The notes under the pieces: model-generated
What the model was told of the DNA's origin: nothing
The model's input: only the letters and a program-made list of their open reading frames with translations
Database searches by the model: none
From: Phyllobacterium sp. OV277
GTDB lineage: Bacteria > Pseudomonadota > Alphaproteobacteria > Rhizobiales > Rhizobiaceae
Assembly: GCF_900104355.1 (NCBI RefSeq)
Contig: NZ_FNIY01000003.1
Span: 372,001-436,000 of the forward strand
Length of the DNA stretch: 64,000 bases
Reading direction: 5' to 3'
Program-made: the position numbers and the translations under genes
Part shown: positions 34,895-37,222 of the stretch, piece by piece
Position numbering within the stretch: position 1 is the stretch's first letter
Layout of the letters: each line of letters opens with the position of its first letter

Positions 34895-36043
34895 TCAGGA
34901 CATGGTCAATGGCGGACCGATATAACGGGCACGCGGGCGGATCAGCTGGTTCATTGATTGCTGTTCGAAAATATGGGCGATCCAGCCGACAGACCGGGCA
35001 ATGGCGAAGAGTATGACCGGCGCTGACGGGGGCAAGTCAAAAGTGTCGGTCATGGCCGCAAGGGCGAAATCAATATTGGGGTATTCGCCCGTCAACATCT
35101 GCGTCGTCTCACCAATCTCCTGATAAACATCCCCCGGCTTGAACTGAGCCAGCAACGCCTTGGCGCGCAGATCACCATTTGGATAGAGCGGATGCCCGAA
35201 TGCGGGGATGGCCCGGCCCTGTGCCAGCAAATCCCTGATTGCAAAACCTGCACCACTGGTCTGCGCCGCCCGGGCCAGCGCCTGTACGCTGAGATAGGCT
35301 TCCCCATGCAAAGGTCCGGTCAGCGTGGCGAGACCGGCGAGCATGCTTGCGGCCAGCGGGGCTCCGGTGGAAGCAGCGACCCGCGCGGCAAAGGTCGATG
35401 CATTGAGTTCATGATCGGCAAGCAGAACCAGCGCCCGCCGGATGCAATCCTCCGCCTTCGGTGCCTTCCAGACACGGGCGAGACGCGTGTGAACGTGGCT
35501 TGCATGAGCCCTGTCAGCGCCCAGCATAGCGGAAACGACTTCGCCGAAGATCGTGGTTGCTTCGACCACGAGTACAGCGCGGGAGCGGCCATAGGCAGGC
35601 AGATCCGTTGCGGCGCGGCGTGCCAGCGTGATCAGGGCGGCTTCGAGTGGTTGCTCTGGCGTCGGCACGGTCTCGGCACGAGGAGCCAGCGAAATGCGCT
35701 CTGCCTCCCACAGCAAGGCGGCGACCTGCTCCAGCATCGATGTTGCCGCCAGTTCCGCGGCATCCTTGCCGCGATACCATAAACGGCCATCAACAATGGT
35801 GGAGACGCTTGATGGCAGGACCGGATCGCCCCAGCCGATTGCCTCGGCCGCTACGTTGGCGACCGTGCGCCGACCTGCCTTGCGTCCGGCAAGGCGCTTC
35901 ACGTCCTCACTTTTGTAAAGGCTGCGGCGTGGGTCCTGTGGATCAGGTTTTGCCTGAATCCGCCCCCGGCTGACATTGGCATAAAGGGTTTGCGGCTGAA
36001 CCCCGAGAGCAGCCAATGCCTGTGATGCCGTCAACCAAGCCAT
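34895..36043 (-). CDS. Helix-turn-helix / citrate synthase-like fusion protein
   Basis: 382 residues. Residues 1-55 (MAWLTASQALAALGVQPQTL, then YKSEDVKRLAGRK) form a MerR/excisionase-type winged helix-turn-helix. The rest is a citrate synthase fold: HELNASTFAARV, LTGPLHGEA (substrate His), AFGHPLYPNGDLRAKAL (second His, but Pro-Leu where Arg-Val/Ile is usual) and YPNIDFALAAM (catalytic-type Asp kept), with a C-terminal IRPRARYIGP. It faces a paralogue without the DNA-binding domain across an 87-base gap with palindromes. Likely a regulator that senses an acyl-CoA or oxaloacetate, or a bifunctional enzyme (inference). GenBank-type labels would call it citrate synthase family. Confidence 0.88.
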   Translation of the reverse strand: MAWLTASQALAALGVQPQTLYANVSRGRIQAKPDPQDPRRSLYKSEDVKRLAGRKAGRRTVANVAAEAIGWGDPVLPSSVSTIVDGRLWYRGKDAAELAATSMLEQVAALLWEAERISLAPRAETVPTPEQPLEAALITLARRAATDLPAYGRSRAVLVVEATTIFGEVVSAMLGADRAHASHVHTRLARVWKAPKAEDCIRRALVLLADHELNASTFAARVAASTGAPLAASMLAGLATLTGPLHGEAYLSVQALARAAQTSGAGFAIRDLLAQGRAIPAFGHPLYPNGDLRAKALLAQFKPGDVYQEIGETTQMLTGEYPNIDFALAAMTDTFDLPPSAPVILFAIARSVGWIAHIFEQQSMNQLIRPRARYIGPPLTMS

Positions 36044-36061
36044 GTGATCTCACATTGATTA

Positions 36062-36084
36062 TTTACGTCAAGATTGACGTCAAT
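36062..36084. promoter_or_regulatory. Probable operator between divergent citrate synthase-like genes
   Basis: Perfect palindrome ATTGACGTCAAT at 36073-36084 next to a near copy TTTACGTCAA at 36062-36071, 12 bases apart centre to centre. It lies about 20-40 bases upstream of the helix-turn-helix fusion gene and 47-69 upstream of the paralogue. Binding by the fusion protein is an inference from position. Confidence 0.65.
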
Positions 36085-36130
36085 CATAGCGCACACCATC
36101 TTGCCATGGAAACGAAAACTGGAGTTTGCC

Positions 36131-37222
36131 ATGAAAAACGGTCTTGATGATGTTGTCGCCACGGAAACCATGCTGTCGGATGTTGATGGTATCGGGGGCA
36201 TATTGATCATTCGCGGCCAATCGCTGGACGCGTTGGCCGGCGTCGTGACCTATGAGGAATTGCTGGCGCTGCTTTTGTCGGATGCCTTCGATGAAAAGCT
36301 TGATGCTGATGGTTTGCGCCAGCAGATTGGCCTCGCCCGGCAGGAAGTTTTCCGCACAGTGCCTGACGCTGCAATGCCTTTGCTGAAATTGCCCGTTACC
36401 GATGCTGTGCGCGCCCTGACCGCCCAGTTTGCCGACGGTGATGATCTTGCCACAGCCTTGCGCCTGATCGCGGCGCCTGCCGTGTTTACACCTGCGGTCA
36501 TCAGGCTGAAAAATGGTCAAGCACCGGTTGCCCCTGATAGCTCGCTCACCCATGCCGCCGACATATTGCACATGTTGCATGGCCGTAGCGTATCGCCGCA
36601 GGAGGCCGCTGCTCTCGACACCTATCTGGTGACTGTCAGCGACCACGGCATGAACGCCTCGACCTTTGCCGCCCGCGTTGTCGCATCCACCCATGCGGGG
36701 CTGGTTTCCTCAGTGCTTGCCGCATTCGGAGCGCTCAAAGGTCCGCTGCATGGCGGCGCACCGGGGCCGGTTCTCGACATGCTGGATGCCATCGGCACGC
36801 CTGATAATGCCGAAAGCTGGCTGGAAAAGGCACTGGATGATGGCGAGCGGCTGATGGGTTTTGGCCACCGCATTTACCGGGTGCGCGACCCTAGGGCCGA
36901 TGCATTGATGCAGGCACTGCGGCGGCTGGCCGGAACGGGCAATTACGGTGCGGGCCGCTTCAAGCTGGCTGAAAGCGTCGAGGCTGCGGCCTTACGTATT
37001 CTCGCGCGGCGCAAACCGGACCGGCCGCTCAAGACGAATGTCGAGTTTTATACGGCACTACTGCTGGAAACACTTGGCTTTCCCAGAGAAAGTTTCACCA
37101 GCGTCTTTGCCATGGGCCGGGTCGGCGGCTGGATTGCCCATGCGCGCGAGCAAACCCAGCATGGCCGGTTGATCCGCCCGCAATCGCTCTATGTTGGACC
37201 ACGCCCGATCAAGGCGGCCTGA
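36131..37222 (+). CDS. Citrate synthase-like protein (2-methylcitrate synthase family)
   Basis: 363 residues without the DNA-binding domain. DHGMNASTFAARVVAST, LKGPLHGGAPG (substrate His), MGFGHRIYRVRDPRADAL (second His and Arg) are normal, but the catalytic Asp position reads TNVEFYTALLLE, that is Glu instead of Asp. GGAG stands ten bases before the ATG at 36131. Divergent from the fusion gene. Could make citrate, 2-methylcitrate or another acyl-CoA/oxo-acid condensation product; activity needs testing. Its C-terminal IRPQSLYVGP matches the tail of its neighbour. Confidence 0.88.
   Translation: MKNGLDDVVATETMLSDVDGIGGILIIRGQSLDALAGVVTYEELLALLLSDAFDEKLDADGLRQQIGLARQEVFRTVPDAAMPLLKLPVTDAVRALTAQFADGDDLATALRLIAAPAVFTPAVIRLKNGQAPVAPDSSLTHAADILHMLHGRSVSPQEAAALDTYLVTVSDHGMNASTFAARVVASTHAGLVSSVLAAFGALKGPLHGGAPGPVLDMLDAIGTPDNAESWLEKALDDGERLMGFGHRIYRVRDPRADALMQALRRLAGTGNYGAGRFKLAESVEAAALRILARRKPDRPLKTNVEFYTALLLETLGFPRESFTSVFAMGRVGGWIAHAREQTQHGRLIRPQSLYVGPRPIKAA

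Follow-up and report, generated by a model that had tools for sequence, protein, structure and literature searches.

Several described regulators and enzymes border on the arrangement considered here, in which a helix-turn-helix (HTH) is joined to a citrate synthase fold. The GabR/MocR regulators combine a winged HTH with an aminotransferase fold. The fusion protein of the present locus would likewise reuse an enzyme fold as a one-component ligand sensor, whereas its HTH class and its enzyme fold are different ones. In MerR regulators, a long dimerisation helix follows the DNA-binding domain, and the operator sits in a promoter spacer of 19–20 bases. Citrate synthases of the Mycobacterium tuberculosis CitA and PRK12350 kind differ from the fusion in having no HTH attached, as judged from the aligned chains; the enzyme that neighbors the fusion keeps the basic residue of the coenzyme A (CoA) site.

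Caulobacter crescentus possesses two extra citrate synthases, CitB and CitC (CCNA_03757 and CCNA_03758; eLife 2020, PMC7083601). According to the complementation passages of that paper, CitB complements Escherichia coli gltA and CitC does not. Its passages on the two proteins treat both as citrate synthases and assign CitC no gene-regulatory role, and the term helix-turn-helix has 0 occurrences in the paper. The genes are numbered consecutively, and relatives such as C. segnis (L092) carry a divergent pair of fusion and partner together with the operator described below. The C. segnis partner is 37.7% identical to Bacillus subtilis CitA, which fits the 37% printed for CitB in PMC7083601. Judged from these relatives rather than from the sequence of strain NA1000, Caulobacter CitC is probably an HTH–citrate synthase fusion.

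Among the matches listed for the open-licence PMC literature, none describes an HTH–citrate synthase regulator. Suvorova et al. reportedly studied propionate regulation in proteobacteria by comparative genomics in 2012 (J Bacteriol), and a predicted regulator named PrpQ is said to come perhaps from that work. Their study may include the fusion family and may have predicted part of the present findings.

The divergent pair and its DNA-binding domain

Within the window, the whole 64-kb stretch of DNA that was analysed, the fusion gene on the minus strand and a stand-alone citrate synthase gene on the plus strand diverge from a gap of 87 bases (36044–36130; Table 1), exactly where the preliminary description had placed them. 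The start at 36074 that a mechanical open-reading-frame call gives the partner is unlikely, and the ATG at 36131 is preferred. The partner scores 325 bits against PF00285 and 450 bits against PRK12350 (NF009005; cut-off 332). A third citrate synthase gene, on contig 18, is the strongest PF00285 match of the genome and probably encodes the housekeeping enzyme.

Table 1. Features of the divergent gene pair and its intergenic gap (positions in the window).
Feature	Position	Strand	Basis or remark
HTH–citrate synthase fusion, proposed one-component regulator	34895..36043	-	382 aa; orthologues, AlphaFold2 model pLDDT 91.9
Winged helix-turn-helix domain, residues ~1–58	35870..36043	-	Model, HTH_17/MerR_1 matches, invariant residues
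Citrate-synthase-fold domain, residues 59–382, proposed citrate-type acid sensor	34898..35869	-	
Operator core TCAATCTTGACGTAAATAATCAA, three half-sites	36055..36077	-	Pattern in 84/90 homologous promoters; single genome copy
Fourth half-site (TTGA on minus), completes the palindrome first described	36080..36083	-	TTGACGTCAA in 35/84 sites
Putative -35 box TTGACG of partner gene, overlaps operator	36074..36079	+	
Putative -10 box CATCTT of partner gene, 17-base spacer	36097..36102	+	
Likely ribosome-binding site TGGAG of partner	36120..36124	+	Sequence
Stand-alone citrate synthase, PRK12350 subfamily, 363 aa from ATG 36131	36131..37222	+	

Relatives of the fusion come from two sources. A pattern scan of species genomes gave at least 596 stretches, 588 of them coding for a relative, and the best 80 of the 588 were retained; ten more come from a sample of 59 genomes. 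The resulting set of 90 fusions spans alpha-, beta-, and gammaproteobacteria. Because the scan used two peptide patterns, part of the conservation seen within HELNAS[TA]F and within the HTH helix reflects selection.

The N-terminus had been read as an HTH of the MerR/excisionase type, joined to a citrate synthase fold, and comparative genomics supports this as the probable assignment. HTH_17 scores 16.5 bits on the whole window protein and 20.4 bits on the domain alone, below the cut-off of 27. Homologous domains match HTH_17 in 39 of 41 cases, MerR_1 in 21, and MerR in 19 at E<=0.01, with a best HTH_17 E value of 4e-11. The AlphaFold2 model has helices at residues 6–13 and 17–25, strands at 31–34 and 37–44, and a further helix at 45–56, an order that fits a MerR-type winged HTH even though the window protein itself lies under the HTH_17 cut-off. 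Residues S25, R26, R39, and Y43 are invariant in all 90 fusions. When the HTH profile was compared with solved structures, the best match was a non-regulator at E 0.26 and no relative emerged, a null result that is not counted against the HTH.

The probable likeness to the MerR family lies in the type of HTH, its wing, and the MerR_1 matches. The differences lie outside that domain. In the model, the long coiled-coil helix is missing, and just a helix at residues 61–70 stands between the HTH and the citrate synthase fold. The operator covers the likely -35 box and extends upstream of it, in a promoter with a 17-base spacer, instead of lying inside a spacer of 19–20 bases; classical MerR action within a long promoter spacer was rejected on account of this length.

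The operator and the facing promoters

In the gap, the preliminary description noted a 12-base palindrome with a near copy. Both are present, as ATTGACGTCAAT at 36073–36084 and ATTTACGTCAA at 36061–36071. The view of the gap as a control site is supported, now through a conserved operator, whereas the palindrome itself does not survive as that operator: it occurs in just 29 of 84 sites and is absent from gene pairs such as L011–L013 that nevertheless keep the operator. It is a lineage-specific fragment, formed where the array carries a fourth half-site as well.

The conserved site, TCAA-N2-TTGA-N9-TCAA, lies upstream of 84 of the 90 fusions, and its second gap measures 9 bases in every one. 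Its consensus is gTCAATCTTGATnAnnnaATCAAtaT; the base counts depend on the letters that the pattern fixes, but the extra conserved bases do not. No further copies occur in the 587,082 bases of the same 90 loci, and the 5.33-Mb genome of the window holds one copy, in the gap, with no second. For the 64-kb window, one occurrence compares with 0.02 expected for a pattern chosen after the relatives had been viewed. The exact operator is missing at six loci, of which two are one base off (L088 and L107) and four have no site (L068, L077, L087, and L089).

Toward the partner gene, the first half-site of the operator is also the start of the putative -35 box. At the 68 loci with a citrate synthase partner, this box reads TTGACG in 50, and a weakly conserved box, ~gATCTt, follows 17 bases on. 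Loci facing 2-methylcitrate (prp) genes have TTGATC, 17 bases, and CANNNT in 8 of 8, while those facing a CoA-transferase keep the -35-like box without a clear -10 box at 17-base spacing. The promoters facing the fusion look sigma-70-like. At its other end, the operator in the window stops 11 bases short of the fusion start codon. Given that the operator covers the likely partner -35 box and lies beside the start codon of the fusion, a bound protein could block both genes. Comparative genomics makes it probable that the fusion controls both the divergent gene and itself, as the preliminary description had it.

The reading that these observations favor, with a probability of roughly 0.7, is that the fusion is a one-component regulator that acts on the TCAA/TTGA operator, would repress the divergent enzyme gene as well as itself, and probably senses a citrate-type acid. 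Its winged HTH would bind the 23-base TCAA-N2-TTGA-N9-TCAA site in the gap, an assignment suggested by the conservation of the site across species. The bound protein would then cover the -35 box, blocking the divergent enzyme promoter and the gene of the fusion itself, although it may instead activate the enzyme gene. Under such an activating scheme, the fusion would recruit RNA polymerase to the enzyme gene from its place over and upstream of the -35 box and repress only itself. Many divergent activators bind at such positions, and the operator does lie over and upstream of the enzyme -35 box and near the start of the fusion. Nevertheless, the enzyme promoters already possess a good -35 box (TTGACG in 50/68) at the normal spacing of 17 bases, which argues for blocking. 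Repression is judged more likely than activation of the partner, and the activating scheme as a whole is unlikely without being negligible.

The citrate synthase domain and its likely ligand

The remainder of the fusion protein matches citrate synthase profiles. PF00285 gives 182 bits (cut-off 27) and is, with HTH_17, the sole Pfam match, and the 21 NCBIfam matches are all citrate synthases or citryl-CoA lyases. Alignment of the model with VIA-align on the top-ranked chains of Foldseek places the citrate synthase fold mainly at residues 59–382. The catalytic His-His-Asp triad and the carboxylate-binding Arg residues are retained in 89–90 of 90 fusions. Pocket residues H246, D325, R293, R350, and R369 are found in all 90, and H284 and H211 in 89. 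The active site of the partner is likewise kept in 68 of 68. In all 68 partner enzymes, Glu replaces the catalytic Asp (window motif NVEFY), as it does in B. subtilis CitA, and the fusions have Asp in 90 of 90.

The CoA site is altered. In 84 of 90 fusions, Pro replaces the basic residue after the GFGH motif, a CoA contact as in pig R324, whereas 68 of 68 partners have Arg or Lys there, and the segment that follows has 32 residues in 82 of 90 fusions versus 46–54 in the 68 partners. Acyl-CoA, one of the ligands put forward for the enzyme-like domain in the preliminary description, is disfavored by the proline and the shortened segment; citrate and oxaloacetate, also named there, remain as candidates. 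With the carboxylate pocket kept and the usual CoA site lost, the domain probably senses citrate, 2-methylcitrate, or oxaloacetate. In the favored scheme, it would close on one of these acids, and DNA binding would be altered as a result.

A profile search of the window's genome found no prpB over the cut-off and two relatives below it, so 2-methylcitrate is no obvious effector there. Citrate itself is probably what the pair handles in that genome.

Because the catalytic triad is kept, the fusion may have enzymatic activity. The fusion could be a trigger enzyme, for which PutA, an enzyme that also binds DNA in its role with proline, serves as the model; it would then have kept its activity, as a (methyl)citrate synthase or in handling citryl-CoA, while also binding DNA, and would read flux through its own catalysis. 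The completeness of the triad and Arg ligands in 89–90 of 90 fusions is in keeping with such a role. It is made improbable by the loss of the basic CoA-site residue in 84 of 90, by the shortened segment behind it, and by the complementation results given in PMC7083601, where CitC, probably the Caulobacter orthologue, fails to replace E. coli gltA while CitB succeeds.

Distribution, partner exchange, and the 2-methylcitrate loci

The fusion is present in 10 of 59 genomes (own included), among them 5 of 20 from the same genus, so its distribution is patchy. The operator follows this pattern: the site with one added T occurs in 9 of the 10 genomes that have a fusion versus 5 of the 49 that do not (Fisher p=1.4e-6, kinship ignored). 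The tenth fusion genome (G039) has the operator without the added T. One genome (G031) has two further copies of the site away from its fusion, and the sites in the five fusion-free genomes resemble chance occurrences. In 200 genomes spread evenly over Pseudomonadota, the HTH domain is found in 24, with the exact operator at 19 of the 24 fusion loci, no site at four (L134, L139, L140, and L151), and a variant of 8 bases in place of 9 at one (L150). This sample overlaps the first (own genome; the L134 neighbor protein is that of L087) and is therefore a second, not an independent, sample.

Among the seven differing proteins from loci without a site, the VSRG motif within the HTH is altered in L077, L089, and L151 and intact in L068, L087, L139, and L140; L134 resembles L087. 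Given the four intact motifs, loss of the site is not simply a consequence of loss of the HTH. Some fusions lie beside a gene that by eye is cation-efflux-like (L068, L087, L100, L134, L140, and perhaps L139; the named ones are Caulobacterales). The operator is absent from these loci except L100, so a local target may no longer exist for the regulator there. A distant relative with ~32% identity and the 8-base operator variant (L150/L173, G077) faces what appears by eye to be a gene for a TctC-like tricarboxylate-binding receptor, which would fit a citrate-type ligand. In another genome (G272, L171), the fusion and its citrate synthase partner are both split frames and the operator is exact; the module may be decaying, or the splits may be errors of sequencing. 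Of the 40 matches listed for plasmid relatives, 18 have an annotated feature, in each case named as one or another citrate synthase, which leaves the regulatory half unnoticed.

The gene opposite the fusion is exchangeable. A divergent partner citrate synthase is found at 68 of the 90 fusions, with ~54–100% identity to the partner in the window (best segment), and a divergent class III CoA-transferase at 13 (9 by Pfam, all PF02515, and the rest by BLAST). At one locus (L077), the CoA-transferase is on the strand of the fusion, six loci have other neighbors, and contig ends cut two. The two partner types occur together at none of the 90 loci. Partner type switched at least five times on a quick tree and at least three times when well-supported branches alone are counted. 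Neighbors at L068, L087, L088, L089, L100, L107, L134, L139, L140, L150, and L151, and the aconitase at L146, were named by eye. The CoA-transferases that face the fusion (L014, L041, L052, L055, L059, L082, L093, L103, L108, L109, L112, L113, and L114) have ~460 residues, with a PF02515 match that begins at residue 204–236 in the nine Pfam-tested. The reaction of these enzymes could point to the effector of the fusion.

At three further loci, from the 200-genome sample, the fusion faces genes of the 2-methylcitrate cycle. In L147 and L148, these are prpB (methylisocitrate lyase equivalog, over cut-off) followed by prpC, identified by an equivalog over cut-off in L147 and by a BLAST match in the genome of L148; in L146, the gene is an AcnD-like aconitase (by eye). 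Among 61 genomes of the order to which these belong, ten have a fusion match at E<=1e-40 (eight intact, one split frame, and one half match). All eight intact fusions, three of which are the loci that prompted the order-wide search, face prp genes (7 prpB-prpC, 1 AcnD-like), and each has the exact operator. One of these loci (L165, in G284) has a separation of ~1.4 kb between prpB and prpC.

The same 61 genomes contain prpB over the cut-off in 53 and PrpR in four. All four PrpR genes are divergent beside prpB, none of the four genomes has a fusion match, and three of them share the genus code g116 with a fusion-bearing genome (G148). G284 speaks against strict exclusion, with a fusion at the prp locus and, elsewhere, a full-length PrpR-like protein just below the cut-off (447.9 bits; cut-off 499.2). 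About 40 of the 53 genomes with prpB lack both fusion and PrpR at these thresholds. On the simplest reading, the fusion and PrpR have taken each other's place at these loci. The fusion resembles PrpR (TIGR02329) by its position, which is divergent beside prpB in seven of eight cases (AcnD-like aconitase in the other); the window locus has no prp genes. It is not a member of the PrpR family, however, being unrelated and free of a sigma-54 activator domain, with promoters that look sigma-70-like. For the PrpR of Corynebacterium glutamicum, which belongs to a different family, of the MtPrpR type, 2-methylcitrate is suggested as coactivator in the relevant passage of PMC6765138.

This exchange of partners bears on who owns the site. 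Since it was defined through conservation and not through binding, it might belong to another regulator, with the fusion merely one target. This is very unlikely, because the window's own genome has a single site, the site tracks the presence of the fusion (9/10 versus 5/49 genomes), and site and fusion persist through changes of partner and flanks. Least likely is a mixed citrate synthase formed by fusion and partner, with the HTH as a leftover: the paralogues are adjacent and a citrate synthase active site is shared across the dimer, yet the operator persists where CoA-transferases or prp genes take the place of the partner, and several HTH residues are invariant.

The targets of the proposed repressor would be the second citrate synthase in the genome of the window and, elsewhere, the class III CoA-transferase or the genes of the 2-methylcitrate cycle, where it would replace PrpR. 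The chances are about even that the fusions represent a widespread, undescribed family of transcription factors, in which an HTH was added to a citrate synthase and the CoA site was then lost to leave a tricarboxylate sensor. Such a family would control acyl entry into (methyl)citrate and would have displaced PrpR in some bacteria, and CitC would be a regulator rather than a dead enzyme. The locus provides a specific case, amenable to testing, in which the fold of a tricarboxylic-acid-cycle enzyme may have become a DNA-binding sensor, with an operator sequence and a ligand class supplied for the proposed regulator. It offers a function for the unexplained extra ‘citrate synthase’ that Caulobacter shares with rhizobia, and it points to a new regulator of propionate use. 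Altogether, the findings suggest that an enzyme of central metabolism was turned into a sensor that controls the genes feeding carbon into citrate-type compounds.
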